48,126 bases of DNA. It comes from Candidatus Kapaibacterium sp. (GTDB taxonomy: Bacteria; Bacteroidota; Ignavibacteria; Kapaibacteriales; UBA4661). The stretch spans positions 1-48,126 of the forward strand of contig JANWZB010000009.1 of NCBI GenBank assembly GCA_025055035.1, given 5' to 3'. The position numbers were made by a program, and so were the translations under genes. Under the pieces are notes generated by a model, which saw nothing but the letters and a program-made list of their open reading frames with translations, did not search any database and was not told the origin of the DNA. Positions 26,969 through 36,280 of this stretch are shown here, piece by piece (the first letter of the stretch is position 1; every line of letters begins with the position of its first letter).

Positions 26969-27194
26969 CAAATCTCTCACTACTAGTGAATAATAATGGT
27001 ATTGTGTAGCTTAGATCGTTCCCTTACAACTTTCTCTTTCAGCGCAAATGGCATATCGTTCAGCACTTGCACTTATCACTTCATACCAACAAATTTACAC
27101 TCTTGGAGGTTGGAAGGAATGGAACAAAGTTGTATATTGAGCACTTGCCAACTTGCACTCTGTTTTCGACACACCTTACTGCAAGGAATCGTAT

Positions 27195-27692
27195 ATGCAA
27201 ACAGTATTTGATAAAAGCGCCGAAAAGCAGCGAGAACAATCATCAAGCAATGAAGCAGTGCTCCAGCTGGTAAGCTTTACTCTTGGGAAAGAAGAGTTTG
27301 GCATAGATATTCTCCGTGTTCAAGAAATTAATCGTACCTCATCGGTAACTCGCGTTCCAAACGCACCACACTTTATCGAGGGTGTAATTAACCTACGCGG
27401 CAAGGTTATTCCAATTGTTGATCTTCGAAAACGCTTCGGAATGCCGCCATCGCAGCATGATAAGAATACTCGTATCATCGTTGTGGAAATTCTCTCTAAA
27501 ACTGTTGGATTTATTGTGGACTCGGTGCGCGAGGTGCTGCGCATCCCTCAAAGCGTTGTTGACCCACCTCCCCCTATTATCGCGGGCATCAGCTCAGACT
27601 ACATTGAGGGTGTCGGTAAAATGGATGATCGTCTCTTGATTCTTCTGAATCTTGAAAAAGCACTTTCTGCTTCAGAATTACAAGCACTCTAA
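27195..27692 (+). CDS. cheW: chemotaxis coupling protein CheW
   Basis: Scaffold that links CheA to receptors at the inner membrane. 165 residues from the ATG at 27195, chosen because AGGA lies 7 nt upstream; the frame is open 14 codons further back. The CheW fold is clear: LVSFTLGKEEFGIDILRVQEI, VTRVPNAPHFIEGVINLRGKVIPIVDLRKRFG, VGFIVDSVREVLRIP and YIEGVGKMDDRLLILLNLEKAL. The NLRGKVIP segment holds the conserved receptor/CheA contact Arg. It opens a plus-strand chemosensory cluster running to 36,280. The 226-bp space before it contains a weak promoter-like pair (TTGG at 27110, TATATTGA at 27133). Confidence 0.95.
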   Translation: MQTVFDKSAEKQREQSSSNEAVLQLVSFTLGKEEFGIDILRVQEINRTSSVTRVPNAPHFIEGVINLRGKVIPIVDLRKRFGMPPSQHDKNTRIIVVEILSKTVGFIVDSVREVLRIPQSVVDPPPPIIAGISSDYIEGVGKMDDRLLILLNLEKALSASELQAL

Positions 27693-27841: not shown

Positions 27842-29149
27842 ATGAGTCCTCAAGACTGTATATCTAGTCTGCTTAGTGTGCCTGATGCAGCACTGCGCCG
27901 CCGTGCCGCCGAAGAGCTTATGGAAGCAGGAAGTGTATCAGAAGATGCGATTTCTGCCTTCGCAAAAGGACTCACCGATCCCGACAAAGGTGTACGTGAT
28001 ATATGCGCGCTTGCACTGGCGCGCATAGGAAACAGTCAGACCCACACACACTTTGTTGCTGAGGCTGTTGTACCTCTCATTACCCACGAAAGCTTAGAAG
28101 TACGTAATCTTGCAGGAGATATTCTGATAAAGCTTGGACCGGGCGCCGCTGACGCTCTGTATCCTTACCTTCGTGATCCCATTTCCGACAACCGCAAGTT
28201 TGCTTGTGATATCATCGGTTTGAGCAACAATCCTTCTGCTATTCCCTATGTGCGCGCTATCCTCACTGATACGGACAGTAACGTGCGGTGTGCTGCTATC
28301 GAAGCTCTAGGCTTTCTAAAGGCTAGTGAGCTACTTGGCGACATCATTGCTATGTATGATGACGAAACCGTTCGTCCGTACGTTGTTGCTGCAGCGGGTA
28401 GTATTGGTGGGAAACACGCACAGGATTTTCTTCTCAAAGTTATGGACGAATCTGACGATGAATTTATCCAGATTGCTGCTATCGATGCTTTAGCGGTTTG
28501 CGCCGACGATATCGGTATTGCTCACAAGCTTCTACAGTTGTTACCAAGTGCTAGCCCCGATGTGCAGGTTGTTCTTCTTCGGACAGTGTATAGTATTGCC
28601 TTTCGCCTGAAGATATCCATAGACTTGCCGCATGGTCTTCGGTCGGTGGCACAGCAAGCGCTGATGGATGATGATCCGGATACCCGAATATCAGGACTCC
28701 TTGCCTTAGGAAAGCTCTATGAAGAGGAGGACATTCCAGCACTTCTGCACGAAATGCATTACAATAACCCTGAAACACAACAGCACATTCTTTCTATTGT
28801 ACTCAATCATTCATCCCCTGCTGTTGTTCGTGAGTTTTTCGAGCAGGTCTTCACAAGCTTACCTGAAACGCATATTGTTCAAGTACCAGAGCTTCTCGGT
28901 TTTCTTACCTCTATCATTCCGACAGCTGCTACAGACAATGCTGCCATTGCGCTTCAGACCATCTCACGCTATTATCAATCAGCAATACCAGACCATCGGC
29001 GTGAAATTATCGAGTTCTTGCTCGCAGTAGACCGTCATGAAGTAGTTCGTCTTTTGTCTGACGAAATTACCTCAGGTCAGCAGCACCGTGTGGAGGACGC
29101 CATACAGTTCGCCGAATTTTACAATATCCGTGAGATTGTGCTTCCGTGA
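27842..29149 (+). CDS. HEAT-repeat protein in the chemotaxis cluster
   Basis: 435 residues made of about ten helical HEAT or PBS-lyase-like repeats of roughly 31-35 residues (for example DPDKGVRDICALALARIGN, SLEVRNLAGDILIKLGPGAA, DSNVRCAAIEALGFLKASEL, DPDTRISGLLALGKLYEEED). No catalytic domain, signal peptide or membrane segment is seen. Such solenoids usually hold proteins together. The place between cheW and cheR suggests that it binds a component of the signalling array, possibly CheY or the coupling proteins. HEAT-repeat genes occur in some chemosensory operons of other phyla, but I cannot say that this one is orthologous. Spacing to cheW is 149 bp. Confidence 0.85.
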   Translation: MSPQDCISSLLSVPDAALRRRAAEELMEAGSVSEDAISAFAKGLTDPDKGVRDICALALARIGNSQTHTHFVAEAVVPLITHESLEVRNLAGDILIKLGPGAADALYPYLRDPISDNRKFACDIIGLSNNPSAIPYVRAILTDTDSNVRCAAIEALGFLKASELLGDIIAMYDDETVRPYVVAAAGSIGGKHAQDFLLKVMDESDDEFIQIAAIDALAVCADDIGIAHKLLQLLPSASPDVQVVLLRTVYSIAFRLKISIDLPHGLRSVAQQALMDDDPDTRISGLLALGKLYEEEDIPALLHEMHYNNPETQQHILSIVLNHSSPAVVREFFEQVFTSLPETHIVQVPELLGFLTSIIPTAATDNAAIALQTISRYYQSAIPDHRREIIEFLLAVDRHEVVRLLSDEITSGQQHRVEDAIQFAEFYNIREIVLP

Positions 29150-29306
29150 CTCTTTACCGTTTGCACGAAAGCAGGATATTCATGGAGCATTTATCCAGCA
29201 ACAGTATATAGCAATGCCTTGCTCTGTTCACCTACTTAACCTGAAACAGTATTTCGATTTCTAAGCATCTGTCCTGTCCTAATGCTTGTACCTGCGTTGT
29301 ACTCTC

Positions 29307-30368
29307 ATGGCTTCCGATCTTTTTGAAAAATTTCGCTTTAGCCAAAGCTTGAATAATCCAGATCACCGTTCAGAAGATACCGAGAATGAAGAATCGAGCG
29401 GTAGCAACATTCTTGACGTAAGCAAATATAACGTCTCGCAGAACGCTATGTTTTCCCCAGCATCAGAGGAAAAATCTCAGCTTGGGCAGATAACTATTCC
29501 TCCCATTCTTCTCTCCGCAGACAACGCCAATGCTCCCAAAATGGATGAGCAAACATTTAAGAAATTTCGTGATTTTATCTATGAACAATGCGGTATCTCA
29601 TTTACCGAAAACAAGAAGTATTTGCTTGAAGGAAGAATTGCCAAACGTCTGGAAGCACATAATCTTTCAACATTTGAGGAATACTTCGAACTTCTCTCCA
29701 ATTCTGCCTCCGCTCGCGAAGAGCTACCAAGCCTCTTTGAAGTCGTCACAATTAATGAGACATACTTCTTCCGCAATCCCCCCCAGTTCGAGGCGCTAGA
29801 GCAAGTCATTTTGCCAGAAATCATAGCAACAAAACAAGCTCAAGCCAGTAAGAAGGTACGCATATGGAGTGCAGCCTCTTCTTCGGGAGAAGAAGCATAT
29901 ACAATTTCCATGCTGATACTAGAACGGATTAAACCTCAGTTTCCCGGATTCACTTTTGAAATTATCGGCAGCGATATCAACACTACGGTGCTCGAAAAAG
30001 CACGATCGGGTGTGTTCAAAGAGTACTCAGTACGCAATATGCCAGAGTACTATCTCAACAAATACTTCACACGCGATGGAGATAAATACATTCTCCTGCC
30101 TGAAGTTCAAAGTCAAGTAAAATTTATGTGGATCAATTTGTACGACACCCCAACAATGCGGACGATGATAGGATTTGATGTTATTTTTTGCTGCAACGTC
30201 CTTATTTATTTTGACACCGTTGCTAAGCAGCAAGTTGTCGCTGACCTGTATGATGCTCTTAACAAGGGCGGCTATCTGTTTATTGGCTATTCAGAGTCCC
30301 TTCATGGCGTGTCGAAAGCATTTAAGCTCGTTCACTTTCCGAAAACAATCGCATACAAGAAAGAGTAG
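29307..30368 (+). CDS. cheR: chemotaxis protein methyltransferase CheR
   Basis: S-adenosylmethionine-dependent methyltransferase that methylates receptor glutamates for adaptation. 353 residues from the ATG at 29307; the upstream TTG at 29286 is less likely. The CheR N-terminal helical domain starts near residue 79 (MDEQTFKKFRDFIYEQCGI) and includes LLEGRIAKRL and TINETYFFRNPPQF. The SAM-binding domain has RIWSAASSSGEEAYTISMLI, EIIGSDINTTVLEKAR, FDVIFCCNVLIYFD and GGYLFIGYSESL. The first 78 residues are an acidic, polar extension not found in short CheR proteins, starting MASDLFEKFRFSQSL. A docking role for this tail is possible. No receptor gene is present in the window. Confidence 0.95.
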   Translation: MASDLFEKFRFSQSLNNPDHRSEDTENEESSGSNILDVSKYNVSQNAMFSPASEEKSQLGQITIPPILLSADNANAPKMDEQTFKKFRDFIYEQCGISFTENKKYLLEGRIAKRLEAHNLSTFEEYFELLSNSASAREELPSLFEVVTINETYFFRNPPQFEALEQVILPEIIATKQAQASKKVRIWSAASSSGEEAYTISMLILERIKPQFPGFTFEIIGSDINTTVLEKARSGVFKEYSVRNMPEYYLNKYFTRDGDKYILLPEVQSQVKFMWINLYDTPTMRTMIGFDVIFCCNVLIYFDTVAKQQVVADLYDALNKGGYLFIGYSESLHGVSKAFKLVHFPKTIAYKKE

Positions 30369-30481
30369 ACACTACTTTTTTATGATATAACGAAATACCC
30401 TACGTAGTCTGGCATGTGGGTATATCTAGCAAGCTAGTTTCTGTCATCGTTCCTTCCAATATAGTTTTTGGAAGACAAGCT

Positions 30482-30844
30482 ATGAAAAAAACTATCCTTA
30501 CTGTTGACGATTCGATGTCTGTGCGGAAATTCATCGCTTTATCACTCAAGCCGGGAGGATATCGTGTAATTTCGGCAGTTGATGGCATGGATGCACTAGA
30601 AATTTTAGCAAAAGAGAAAGTTGATTTAGTAATTACAGACCTCAATATGCCAAATGTTGATGGCTTTGAGCTTGTTCACACTATTCGTCAAAATCCAGCA
30701 TACAAAGAACTGCCTATTATTATTTTATCCTCGCTTGCTGATGCAAAGTACATCGAGCGAGGGATAAACGCCGGAGCAAATTCGTATATTTTGAAACCGT
30801 TCAACATGAAAAAGATTCAATATGAGGTTTCAAAATACATTTGA
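30482..30844 (+). CDS. cheY: CheY-like single-domain response regulator (first copy)
   Basis: 120 residues, receiver domain only. Start at ATG 30482 with GGAAGA about 6-7 nt upstream. Acidic pocket D9/D10, phospho-acceptor D53 (VDLVITDLNMPNVDG), switch residue S83/S84 (IIILSSLAD) and K105 (SYILKPF). The Ser in place of the more usual Thr, with SLAD behind it, recalls CheY forms of non-flagellar chemosensory systems. It should receive phosphate from CheA H52. It differs enough from the second CheY (30949-31317) to suggest a separate role, such as phosphate sink versus output. Confidence 0.93.
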   Translation: MKKTILTVDDSMSVRKFIALSLKPGGYRVISAVDGMDALEILAKEKVDLVITDLNMPNVDGFELVHTIRQNPAYKELPIIILSSLADAKYIERGINAGANSYILKPFNMKKIQYEVSKYI

Positions 30845-30948: not shown

Positions 30949-31317
30949 ATGAAATTTCTCGTAGTTGATGACTCGCCAACAATGCGCCGCATTGTAATCA
31001 ACGCGCTTCATAGTTTTGGGTACAATGATGTCGTCGAGGCGAGTGACGGACAAGACGCACTTGCAATCCTCTACACTGAGAAGATTGACTTTGTGATTAC
31101 TGACTGGAACATGCCTAATATGAATGGTCTGGAACTCACGAAAGCAATCCGCAACGATGCAACGTTTGGTAATCTACCAGTACTGATGGTAACTACACGC
31201 GGCATTAAAGAGGACATCGTGCAAGCGCTCCAAGCTAAAGTAAATAACTACATCGTGAAACCCTTTACTCCAGCAGTTCTCAAAGAGAAGATACAAGCAA
31301 TTGTGCCAAATGCATAA
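30949..31317 (+). CDS. cheY: CheY-like single-domain response regulator (second copy)
   Basis: 122 residues. Phospho-acceptor D52 (IDFVITDWNMPNMNGLEL), acidic D7/D8, switch T82/T83 (VLMVTTRG) and K104 (YIVKPFT). The DWNMPNMNGLELTKAIR segment is very close to E. coli CheY, so this copy is the more likely output regulator that binds a FliM-like target. In this cluster the only visible FliM-like peptides lie in the tail of the CheZ-like protein downstream. The ATG at 30949 has no strong ribosome binding site. It follows the first CheY by 104 bp. Confidence 0.93.
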   Translation: MKFLVVDDSPTMRRIVINALHSFGYNDVVEASDGQDALAILYTEKIDFVITDWNMPNMNGLELTKAIRNDATFGNLPVLMVTTRGIKEDIVQALQAKVNNYIVKPFTPAVLKEKIQAIVPNA

Positions 31318-31652: not shown

Positions 31653-32747
31653 ATGCGCGTAGGTGAAATTAACGAAATACTCCATAAAACAGAAGAACTC
31701 AAGGCTCTCTTTGTGTTCGGGCAACGTGTCATTCCATTCCTAGAAGAAGTTTTCCTCTTTATTCGTGAGGTTACCCCACTTCTAGAAAATATCAATATCT
31801 CGATTGAGGAAAATCTTTCGAAGATGCCCAAAGCAGCCCAGCAACTCTCTTCTGTTACACGGGCTACAGAACTTGCAACCACAGAAATTCTTGATACTCT
31901 CGATGGACTAAGTTATAAAGCCGACGTTATTAGTTCCAATCTTAAGCAACTTCTCCAAATCCAGCGCCAGAATCGCTTAGAGCATGAGCGCATAATTGAG
32001 GCAGTGAACGAGCTCCAAAGAAACGAAACTATTCCCACCGAAGAGAAAGACTCCGTGTATGCACGCATTATCGATGTTATTCGCAAGATTGAGCAGCGAG
32101 ATGGCGGACATTCCTCTGCACATTACCTTGATAATATCAAATCAGCTATAGCCGTACTTCAAAAGCCTGAGGTATCTGAGGAGCTAGTAAATAATTCCGA
32201 AAAACTTCTTGAAAGCATTCGCATGGATTCAACACAAATCATGATGTCGCTTCAAGTGCAAGATATTACAGCACAGCAACTGGCAGCTGTCAATAGTTTG
32301 CTGCAAACAGTACAAAGCAAGCTAAGCGAAATCATGGTTCACTTTCGCAACACGGAGATTGGGGAGCTTATTTCTTCTTCTACTGCACGCCGTCCCCCTC
32401 AAGAAGAATCTCATGAAACAAAAGTTTCGTCTCTCCATCGAGCTATTGCCTATGATAACGATGTCGGCTCTGCACTCTCAAGCGATCCGTCTCAGCGTCA
32501 AGACTCTGTTGATTCAATTTTTGCCTCGTTCCAGCAAAGCCAGAACACCAACGTAGAGTCTGGAGCACACGGTATGTCGAGCCAAAGTGATATCGATGCG
32601 TTATTCAGCGAAGTACGCATATCCTCTTCTACGCATAGTGAGAACGCTTCTCAAGATGATATAGATGCACTGTTTGGTAACACCAGTGGTTCAGACAATG
32701 AGATTGCTTCTCAGGATGATATAGATGCATTATTCAAGAAAACCTAG
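31653..32747 (+). CDS. cheZ: CheZ-like CheY-P phosphatase with repeated CheY-binding tail peptides
   Basis: 364 residues from the ATG at 31653, with GGAGA 8 nt upstream. The body is helical and charged. The segment MSLQVQDITAQQLAAV contains D204 and Q208 spaced as D143 and Q147 of E. coli CheZ (FQDLTGQ), the catalytic pair that dephosphorylates CheY-P. After a Ser-rich linker the C-terminus carries SQSDIDALF (310-318), SQDDIDALF (333-341) and SQDDIDALF (353-361), plus a degenerate copy QDSVDSIFASF (283-293). CheZ ends in one such amphipathic CheY-binding peptide (VDDLLDSLGF type) and FliM starts with SQxEIDALL. Three to four copies on one chain would bind several CheY molecules. It lies between cheY and cheA. 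The family call rests on motif and context, not on a profile search. Confidence 0.72.
   Translation: MRVGEINEILHKTEELKALFVFGQRVIPFLEEVFLFIREVTPLLENINISIEENLSKMPKAAQQLSSVTRATELATTEILDTLDGLSYKADVISSNLKQLLQIQRQNRLEHERIIEAVNELQRNETIPTEEKDSVYARIIDVIRKIEQRDGGHSSAHYLDNIKSAIAVLQKPEVSEELVNNSEKLLESIRMDSTQIMMSLQVQDITAQQLAAVNSLLQTVQSKLSEIMVHFRNTEIGELISSSTARRPPQEESHETKVSSLHRAIAYDNDVGSALSSDPSQRQDSVDSIFASFQQSQNTNVESGAHGMSSQSDIDALFSEVRISSSTHSENASQDDIDALFGNTSGSDNEIASQDDIDALFKKT
32580..32735 (+). repeat. three in-frame repeats coding for SQxDIDALF
   Basis: The units start at 32580, 32649 and 32709 (spacing 69 and 60 bp, i.e. 23 and 20 residues). The second and third share GCTTCTCA-R-GATGATATAGATGCA with a single base difference, so they arose by recent duplication. 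The first uses other codons and is older. Each unit codes for the putative CheY-binding peptide. Confidence 0.85.
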
Positions 32748-32864: not shown

Positions 32865-34958
32865 ATGGCAGGTCCTCTCGACAACGAAATGAAAGAGCTT
32901 CTTGATAGTTTCCTCGTTGAAACTCAAGAAATTCTTGACACTCTCGACCAAGACCTCATGCAACTAGAGTCGCAAGCAGAGAACTTTGATTTGCTCAACT
33001 CTGTCTTCCGTAGCTTCCATACAATTAAGGGAACGTCCTCTTTCATGGGCTTCGACCAAATCACTGAAATTACACATCATGCAGAAGACATTCTTAACAA
33101 GCTACGAAAAGCAGAGCTAAGAGTAACCTCAGATATCGTTGATGCCTTGTTGGAAGTGTATGACTGGCTAAAAATTCTCCTCAAAAAAGCACAAGCTGGC
33201 GACACAGAGCCTGTCGACTACTCCAAGACTATGCAGAAATTGCATAAAATCATCCACCCAGAATCTTCTACGCCTGCACCTACACCTTCTTCTCCCCCAA
33301 CTACTACGGTCGCCCCCACCACAGCTTCTACACCTAGCATCCCACCGAGTGGTACATCTATTGTGGAAGCTATTTTAAGCGATAAATCATTCGGTACAAC
33401 AGGGGACTACTTTACCGATGAAGAACTTGCAATGATTGCAAAGGCATTTGATGAAATCAACCGTAGTATGCAATCAGGCTCTAGGCAGTCGACTTCCGCT
33501 CAAGATACTCAAGTATCTAGCCAACCTCTATCCGCTCAGCATGTTCAGACAACGCAACCTAGCATTGCCCCATCACCCTTACCATCATCTCAACTGCCGG
33601 CATCAGCACCAGCGCCCCTTCCCACGACTACCCCAATCGCTGCACGTTCCAGTGAGCACCCATCAGCAGCAAAAAAAGCTCCCACAAAAGAAGCAGCCTC
33701 GGTGCCGGCTAATGCACCTGACGACAAAAAAGCAGTAGCAGCAGCAACAGAGACGACTATTCGGGTAGACATCAATCGTCTTGAAACGTTGATGGATCTT
33801 TCGGGAGAACTCGTCCTAGGACGTAACCGCCTAGCACAGGTAACACAAGAACTCATACAGCGCTATGAAAACCACGATTTTCTGAGAGAGCTTCAAGAAA
33901 CAAGTTCAGCGATAGACTTTATTACTACAGAGTTGCAGTCGGCTATCATGAAAACTCGCATGGTACCGATCTCTAAAATTTTTCAGAAAGCCCCGCGTAT
34001 TGTTCGTGATCTATCGAAAGAATTTGGGAAAGAGATTGAGCTTGTGCTTCGCGGAGAGGAGACAGAGCTTGATAGAGGCATTATTGAGGAACTTAATGAC
34101 CCACTCGTTCACATGATTCGCAACTCATGTGACCATGGAATCGAGCGACCAGAAGAGCGGGAAAAAGTAGGAAAAAGTCGTAAAGGAACTTTGATTCTCG
34201 ACGCACAGCACGAGGGAAATCATATTGTTGTTAGCATCATAGATGATGGCAAGGGAATCGATCCGGAAATGCTCAAGCGCAAGGCTCTGGAAAAGGGTCT
34301 TATTACTTCCGAGCAGGCACAAACAATGACTGATAGAGATGCGTACAGCCTCATTTTCATGCCTGGCTTCAGCACAGCTGAAAAAGTAACAAGCGTTTCG
34401 GGGCGTGGGGTAGGTATGGATGTTGTTCGTACAAACATTCAAAAGCTTAAAGGCATTATCGAAGTTGACTCTAAAATAGGCTCCGGCACAACATTTACCA
34501 TCAAGCTTCCACTAACCCTTGCTATTATACAAGGATTGCTTGTTCGTGTGCAGTCTGAAATCTATGCATTACCCTTAAGTGCCGTTGTTGAAGTAGTTAA
34601 TACCGACCTCAACCAAATATATAGCATCAACCAGAACGAAGTTATTCGCATTCGCAATCAAGTGTTTCCCTTGATTCGAATGGACAAAATACTGAAAACT
34701 CCTACGGTAGAAGAATCCCTAGAAAATCGCTACGTCGTCGTCGTGGGTCTCGCAGACAAGCGTCTAGGGCTCGTCGTAGACGAGCTTTTAGGACAGAAGG
34801 AAATAGTTATTAAATCTCTTGGAGAATATCTTGGTCATATCCGTGGTATGTCAGGTTCGACAATTCTTGGCGACGGTCGTGTTATCATGATTCTCGATAT
34901 TGAAGAGCTCATTCAGGCATCTCACCATACTATTGCAGCATCCGTTTGGCAACAATAA
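32865..34958 (+). CDS. cheA: chemotaxis histidine kinase CheA
   Basis: 697 residues. The P1/HPt domain (about 5-125) carries H52 in RSFHTIKGTSSFMGF. A Pro/Ser/Ala/Thr-rich linker (133-296) contains one ordered island (about 164-202, ILSDKSFG and FTDEELAMIAKAFDEINRSM) in place of a recognisable P2 domain. P3 dimerisation helices follow (RLETLMDLSGELVLGRNRLA). The P4 kinase domain has the N box HMIRNSCDHGIERPEER, G1 IIDDGKGID, FMPGFSTAEKVT and GRGVGMDVVRTN. The P5 CheW-like domain (about 560-690) closes the protein. All catalytic motifs look intact. It starts 117 bp behind the CheZ-like gene and 86 bp before cheB. Confidence 0.96.
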   Translation: MAGPLDNEMKELLDSFLVETQEILDTLDQDLMQLESQAENFDLLNSVFRSFHTIKGTSSFMGFDQITEITHHAEDILNKLRKAELRVTSDIVDALLEVYDWLKILLKKAQAGDTEPVDYSKTMQKLHKIIHPESSTPAPTPSSPPTTTVAPTTASTPSIPPSGTSIVEAILSDKSFGTTGDYFTDEELAMIAKAFDEINRSMQSGSRQSTSAQDTQVSSQPLSAQHVQTTQPSIAPSPLPSSQLPASAPAPLPTTTPIAARSSEHPSAAKKAPTKEAASVPANAPDDKKAVAAATETTIRVDINRLETLMDLSGELVLGRNRLAQVTQELIQRYENHDFLRELQETSSAIDFITTELQSAIMKTRMVPISKIFQKAPRIVRDLSKEFGKEIELVLRGEETELDRGIIEELNDPLVHMIRNSCDHGIERPEEREKVGKSRKGTLILDAQHEGNHIVVSIIDDGKGIDPEMLKRKALEKGLITSEQAQTMTDRDAYSLIFMPGFSTAEKVTSVSGRGVGMDVVRTNIQKLKGIIEVDSKIGSGTTFTIKLPLTLAIIQGLLVRVQSEIYALPLSAVVEVVNTDLNQIYSINQNEVIRIRNQVFPLIRMDKILKTPTVEESLENRYVVVVGLADKRLGLVVDELLGQKEIVIKSLGEYLGHIRGMSGSTILGDGRVIMILDIEELIQASHHTIAASVWQQ

Positions 34959-35044: not shown

Positions 35045-36280
35045 ATGAAACCAATTCGGGTTCTAATAGTTGATGACTCAGCATTTGTGCGTAAAGCGCT
35101 TTCCACGATGCTTCAGAGCGAGCCAGACATAGAAGTTGTTGGTTTAGCGAACAATGGTAAAGAAGCAATAGAAAAGACAGCCGAGCTCAAGCCCGATATT
35201 ATTACACTCGACGTTGAGATGCCTGTTATGAATGGCTTGGAGGCACTTCGGATTATCATGGAGCAAACTCCAACCCCTGTTCTCATGGTAAGCAGCGTTA
35301 CTACAGAGGGTGCGGAGGCAACACTTGAAGCATTGTCGCTTGGCGCAGTTGATTTCATATCAAAGCAGTCTACGCTCACTATCCAGCAAACGATGCGCGA
35401 TGAGCTCGTAGGGAAAGTAAAAGCTATTACCCAAAGCTCTGGGGTAAAAAGCCGTCTAGCGCGCCCTTCACTACTCGGTGGATTGGGCTTTCGTAAGCCT
35501 GCTGCGTCCGCAGCACCATCAAAGCAAGAAGAACCGTCTCACGAGCGTCTGTCCCTGCAAGAGCGCATAGCCCGCCGCAGGCAGCAGTCAATGCAAGACA
35601 GCAATGCTTCAGTACAGCACGAGGCATCTATCGCTATCCCAGCAAAGCCTCTCCATGAAGTCCGTGTAACTGGAAGAAAGCGACCTGCAGCAGGTCACGC
35701 CAAAATTGTTGTTCTAGGGGTTTCTACCGGTGGACCTCTAGCCTTACATCAAGTCGTACCACGATTGCCCAAAGACTTTCCTGTAGGTATGCTGATTGTT
35801 CAGCACATGCCCGCGCATTTCACCAAATCACTTGCAGACCGACTAAACACTCTTTCACACGTCACCGTGCGAGAGGCACAAGATGGCGACATTCTCGAAC
35901 CTGGTCTAGTGCTTATTGCACCGGGCGGACTCCATATGAAAATTGCAAAAGACCAGCGCACTATTCTAGTTACTCCCGAACCATCAGACACTCTTCATCG
36001 TCCCTCTGTCGATATCACAACTGATTCTGTCGTTGAAGCATTTGGTGGTCATGCTATTGGCGTTATCATGACAGGAATGGGGCGTGATGGCTGTGCTGGC
36101 CTGAAAAAACTTAGTGCTAAAGGTGGGTATATTATCGCACAAGACGAGCAGTCATGTGTGGTGTACGGTATGCCGAAGGCTGTCGTCGACGAAGGAATTG
36201 CCGACGAAGTACAACCGCTTGACAATCTTGCAGAAGCTATTGCTGCATGTATGGGCGTTCACGCCGTGGAGGCACGATAA
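35045..36280 (+). CDS. cheB: chemotaxis protein-glutamate methylesterase CheB
   Basis: Removes methyl groups from receptor glutamates and deamidates glutamines, for adaptation. 411 residues. N-terminal receiver with D56 (DIITLDVEMPVMNG). A linker of about 85 residues (130-215) is rich in Gln and Arg (RIARRRQQSMQ). The C-terminal methylesterase domain has the triad S227 (VLGVSTGGP), H254 (VQHMPAHFT) and D348 (IMTGMGRDG). The linker is longer than in E. coli CheB. Last gene of the cluster; the next gene is convergent. A weak AAACAC/GTGTTT hairpin lies at 36366-36383 between them. Confidence 0.96.
   Translation: MKPIRVLIVDDSAFVRKALSTMLQSEPDIEVVGLANNGKEAIEKTAELKPDIITLDVEMPVMNGLEALRIIMEQTPTPVLMVSSVTTEGAEATLEALSLGAVDFISKQSTLTIQQTMRDELVGKVKAITQSSGVKSRLARPSLLGGLGFRKPAASAAPSKQEEPSHERLSLQERIARRRQQSMQDSNASVQHEASIAIPAKPLHEVRVTGRKRPAAGHAKIVVLGVSTGGPLALHQVVPRLPKDFPVGMLIVQHMPAHFTKSLADRLNTLSHVTVREAQDGDILEPGLVLIAPGGLHMKIAKDQRTILVTPEPSDTLHRPSVDITTDSVVEAFGGHAIGVIMTGMGRDGCAGLKKLSAKGGYIIAQDEQSCVVYGMPKAVVDEGIADEVQPLDNLAEAIAACMGVHAVEAR

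Follow-up and report, generated by a model that had tools for sequence, protein, structure and literature searches.

The che cluster of a Candidatus Kapaibacterium sp. encodes what is probably a CheY-P phosphatase of the CheZ type, in which the C-terminal docking peptide has been multiplied, captures CheY-P in several copies, and has been kept under selection after loss of the flagellum. The cluster lies within the window, the whole stretch of 48,126 nucleotides that was analysed, and its features are collected in Table 1. The multi-peptide tail is genuine, is under selection and belongs to a variation of CheZ that spans the phylum; searches of open-access papers, judged by title and abstract, brought up no CheZ with repeated CheY-binding peptides.

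Table 1. Features of the che cluster and of the cheZ-like gene (positions in the window)
Feature	Position	Strand	Basis or remark
cheW	27153..27692	+	Pfam
HEAT-repeat protein, encoded in the che cluster after cheW and before cheR	27842..29149	+	Pfam; neighbourhood comparison
cheR	29286..30368	+	Pfam
Second single-domain CheY-like regulator	30482..30844	+	39% identical to the other CheY
cheY, likely substrate and docking partner of CheZ	30949..31317	+	56% identical to E. coli CheY
cheZ-like gene	31653..32747	+	364 aa; GGAGA before ATG start
N-terminal helical region, strongly conserved, ELKALF..GQRVIPF...MPKA..QLS.VT.ATELATTEILDTLD	31653..31952	+	Alignment of relatives
Catalytic helix LQVQDITAQQLAAV with D204 (32262-32264) and Q208 (32274-32276)	32250..32291	+	Aligned to E. 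coli D143/Q147
LHR.IAY/F.D motif, conserved, between catalytic helix and tail	32433..32453	+	Alignment of relatives
Degenerate tail peptide RQDSVDSIF	32496..32522	+	RQxxVD kept in most relatives
CheY-docking-type peptide 1, SQSDIDALF	32580..32606	+	Motif search
CheY-docking-type peptide 2, SQDDIDALF	32649..32675	+	Motif search
CheY-docking-type peptide 3, SQDDIDALF, at C-terminus	32709..32735	+	Copy found in most homologs
cheA (Hpt, dimerization, ATPase and CheW domains)	32865..34958	+	Pfam; P2 (CheY-binding) domain not recognizable
cheB	35045..36280	+	Pfam

A divergent CheZ-like protein

The open frame runs from its ATG to the stop at 32747, and the alignment of relatives begins at the same start. 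In Pfam the protein matches CheZ (PF04344) best (E 3e-6), a family also hit by each of the 28 relatives in the alignment (E <= 0.01; best 1.1e-12). The profile search that an earlier note on this DNA had proposed thus points to the expected family, but the window protein itself, at 27.7 bits, narrowly misses the gathering cut-off of 30.7 bits; because its score lies just below this cut-off, it is described as a divergent CheZ-like protein. It falls far short of the NCBIfam CheZ equivalog models, and a phmmer search against solved structures found no relative. The family profile matches E. coli CheZ weakly (E 7.9). When profiles are compared, the family aligns with six proteobacterial CheZs, all taken from plasmid and megaplasmid records, at a probability of 87.5 and an E-value of 3.6e-6. 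In this comparison, the helix MPKA..QLS.VT.ATELATTEILD aligns with IPDARDRLYYVV.MT.QAAERALN, placing in the N-terminal region a counterpart of the E. coli CheZ helix IPDARDRLYYVV.MT.QAA, and the QDITAQQ helix aligns with QDLTGQV. (It should be noted that the AlphaFold model, although mostly helical, has a pLDDT of 49, which is poor, and so lends no fold support to the CheZ assignment, for which a long helical hairpin and a four-helix-bundle dimer would be expected.)

Within the stretch LQVQDITAQQ, D204 and Q208 have the spacing of D143 and Q147 of E. coli CheZ: the helix fits the pattern QD(L/I)T(G/A/S)Q, and the glutamine follows the aspartate by four residues. The earlier note had recognized this catalytic signature from the sequence, and the alignment bears it out: both residues are invariant in 28 relatives, where they are among 43 invariant columns. 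Taken together, the PF04344 match and the profile alignment of both helices support the proposal, made from sequence, that the protein is a phosphatase like CheZ whose docking tail is multivalent.

A further conserved motif, LHR.IAF.D, follows the catalytic helix and precedes the tail. Its residues H262 and D268 are invariant in the 28 Kapabacterial homologs, and the motif is absent from the six proteobacterial CheZs compared.

The docking-type peptides and their conservation

The tail comprises residues 240-364, is rich in serine and aspartate, and has a net charge of -13. It contains the three SQ(S/D)DIDALF peptides (within 32580-32735) and the one degenerate peptide (32496-32522) that had been noticed earlier, and the strict copies are separated by 12-15 residues. 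The SQDDIDALF at the very C-terminus occupies the place of a CheZ docking peptide and is predicted to act as one. These motifs are not chance occurrences, since only a fraction of 5e-5 of shuffled tails has even one such motif, no other frame of the window has any, and the motifs are kept across the genus.

A previous statement that two of them differ by one base is true of their first 21 bases only; over the 27-base motif, peptides 2 and 3 differ at 4 positions, all synonymous. Tandem Repeats Finder detects no array, and a recent DNA duplication within the window cheZ was rejected for this reason.

A comparison of two non-flagellate sister species (L011 and L014) reveals how the tail is maintained. 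The 27 motif codons have no amino-acid changes and 13 silent changes, whereas the 81 linker codons have 28 amino-acid and 28 silent changes (motif versus linker, Fisher p 9e-5). Between genus members that are less closely related, 2 of the 27 residues in the strict motifs differ. Because the genus lacks FliM and FlhA and the peptides are frozen while the linkers drift, these data argue that the peptides are still used without a flagellar motor. The frozen motifs are the strongest evidence that each copy would matter in the absence of FliM.

Copy number across the phylum

The comparison among relatives suggested earlier finds anywhere from none to seven strict copies. Among 63 homologs in the phylum, 6 have no strict copy, 32 have one, 11 have two, 10 have three, one has four, two have five and one has seven; all relatives within the genus have two or three. 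The C-terminal copy is the most constant and is present in most homologs, with none to six upstream copies. When "two or more copies" is scored as a character on a CheZ-core tree, it must have changed at least seven times. Consequently, the idea that copy number is evolving holds for the phylum, but not in the form in which it was first put, as near-identical DNA repeats within the window.

A check of 18 further genomes, some of them with 2-5 copies, found FliM in every one, and the genome with seven copies (G024) also has it. Since multi-copy tails occur in lineages with FliM, the tail cannot be put down to loss of the flagellum, and multivalency as compensation for the loss of FliM was rejected on the same grounds.

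Two side observations concern other members of the family. Some class relatives (L099, L125 and L127) have two adjacent short CheZ paralogs without a tail peptide. An apparent CheZ-CheA fusion in L095 was rejected as an artefact of masked N bases.

The che cluster and its CheY partners

The gene order in the window is cheW, HEAT-repeat gene, cheR, cheY, cheY, cheZ, cheA, cheB. All seven related loci with flanks long enough to cover the cluster keep the che order; in another, L005, only cheW is missing, at a contig edge. The order cheR-cheY-cheZ-cheA recurs across the phylum where short flanks allow it to be seen, with the first cheY sometimes missing, and cheY-cheZ-cheA is also found in P. aeruginosa and Photobacterium.

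As noted earlier, two CheY genes accompany cheZ, both directly upstream. Across the eight related genome loci that were compared, the nearer one is 98-100% identical; it retains the counterparts of E. coli D57, I95, Y106, V108 and K109, residues of the active site and the docking face. For the other, an ATG start was chosen within a longer GTG frame (30416-30844).

The HEAT-repeat protein is 54-72% conserved in the genus and a sister genus, and is possibly an accessory scaffold. The CheA of the window has a long linker rich in Pro, Ser, Thr and Ala, and the CheAs of three other loci (L091, L101 and L105) have two Hpt domains each.

Chemosensing without a flagellum

The window genome (3.16 Mb, 99.5% complete) has Candidatus Kapaibacterium and Ignavibacteria MAGs as its nearest named relatives. 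The observation that no flagellar gene lies beside cheZ extends to the whole genome, which lacks both FliM and FlhA, as do all eight genomes of the genus that were searched and a sister genus. The same genome encodes 25 chemoreceptor signalling domains (e.g. L054-L078). A search for the type IV pilus ATPase gave nothing above the cut-off. For type IX secretion, there is a SprA homolog at G000:C7, GldM was not detected, and a GldL search, whose controls were silent, was uninformative. The che cluster is conserved and the chemoreceptor domains of the genome number 25, yet the genus has neither FliM nor FlhA; the target of CheY-P can now be searched for.

How the tail may act

The tail most likely captures CheY-P for dephosphorylation. 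Each peptide would form a short helix on the alpha4-beta5-alpha5 face of phosphorylated CheY (the product of 30949-31317), as in E. coli, and the bound peptide would tether CheY-P to the CheZ dimer, allowing D204 and Q208 to act on the phospho-aspartate. Because each chain has several peptides and the dimer about six, the local concentration of CheY-P and the rate of its capture would rise; the peptides may also act as a buffer for CheY-P and make signal termination steeper or faster. Such avidity and buffering are what multiple peptides would be expected to confer. The tail would have arisen by repeated multiplication of the ordinary C-terminal peptide of CheZ, which has been multiplied in flagellate relatives too, and would have been kept under selection after the genus lost its flagellum, CheY-P then having to act on a target other than FliM.

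The absence of FliM from the window genome also invites a different view of the tail, as a sink or platform on which bound CheY-P is itself the readout and catalysis is secondary. As the main receiver of CheY-P, the multiplied tail would do more than help dephosphorylation: it would be a multivalent scaffold for storing CheY-P, setting a threshold or handing CheY-P on to a new motor. In keeping with this, the tail motifs are frozen in species without FliM, and no other protein of the genome has a convincing Qx[DE][IV]DxL peptide (the two further matches, in a 439-residue ORF and a 57-residue frame, look like chance). However, tails with multiple copies, up to seven, are found in many lineages that have FliM, so they were not born as its substitute, and the catalytic pair is invariant; such a role as main receiver is unlikely. 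Copy number might also reflect a disordered tail that has expanded neutrally, with one peptide being enough. The range of copies, the at least seven changes on the tree and the freely drifting linkers could be read in this way, but between sister species the protein sequence of every copy is kept although silent sites have changed, and the window retains no tandem DNA array, which makes neutral expansion improbable.

The tail might instead hold CheY near the kinase, with a CheA-associated CheZ recruiting CheY for CheAs that have no recognizable P2 domain. The CheA of the window indeed consists of Hpt, dimerization, ATPase and CheW domains only, and P2 finds no match in ten CheAs of relatives, some of them partial. 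Yet lineages with one peptide lack P2 just as those with several do; since single-copy relatives also lack it, a P2-less CheA does not explain copy number and was rejected as its cause. In addition, docking peptides prefer CheY-P, as established by E. coli biochemistry, and CheY-P is what CheA makes, not what it acts on. A tether to the kinase is accordingly very improbable, and capture of CheY-P by the multiplied docking peptides of a CheZ-type phosphatase is the reading that is preferred here.

Comparison with known systems

CheC, CheX and FliY likewise dephosphorylate CheY-P. These belong to separate families, however, and the window protein has no such Pfam match.

The peptides of the tail belong to the same class of short CheY-docking motif as the N-terminal peptide of FliM (SQxEIDxLL), and the earlier note had seen in the tail a combination of CheZ and FliM. 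Comparison does not support this idea. In flagellate relatives within the phylum, FliM has a single N-terminal LSQxEIDxLL peptide ending in LL, whereas the C-terminal CheZ peptides of the phylum end in F, and the window protein has no Pfam match to the FliM middle domain (PF02154). Moreover, the CheZs of E. coli and P. aeruginosa carry the same motif in the same place: their C-terminal ends are SQDQVDDLLDSLGF and GQDDVDDLLSSLGF, with the peptides SQDQVDDLL and GQDDVDDLL. Since proteobacterial CheZs end in the same peptide, the tail would be the ordinary CheZ docking peptide, multiplied, and a FliM reading is unnecessary; the window protein is not a FliM-CheZ hybrid.

A possible parallel for CheY-P signalling without a flagellum is PorX, whose CheY-like domain is reported to contact GldL, a non-flagellar motor protein of type IX secretion (PMC10951265, PMC5005315). 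The window genome has a SprA homolog; however, with GldM undetected, a link to the window CheY is conjectural. By this analogy, a gliding motor is a conceivable target of CheY-P in the genus.

The closest known system is the CheZ of Gammaproteobacteria and Betaproteobacteria (PF04344; E. coli CheZ, PDB 1KMI), which shares with the window protein the core, the D/Q pair and its spacing, the cheY-cheZ neighbourhood and a C-terminal peptide of the SQDxVDDLL type. Sequence identity to these proteins is low, and they have one peptide, whereas the window CheZ, from a host without a flagellum, is longer, with an acidic tail of about 125 residues that holds three intact peptides and one degenerate one. 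Thus, while well-studied CheZs have a single CheY-docking peptide, this phylum displays natural variation from none to seven that has changed repeatedly, a ready-made series for testing multivalency against CheY-P turnover and signal sharpness.
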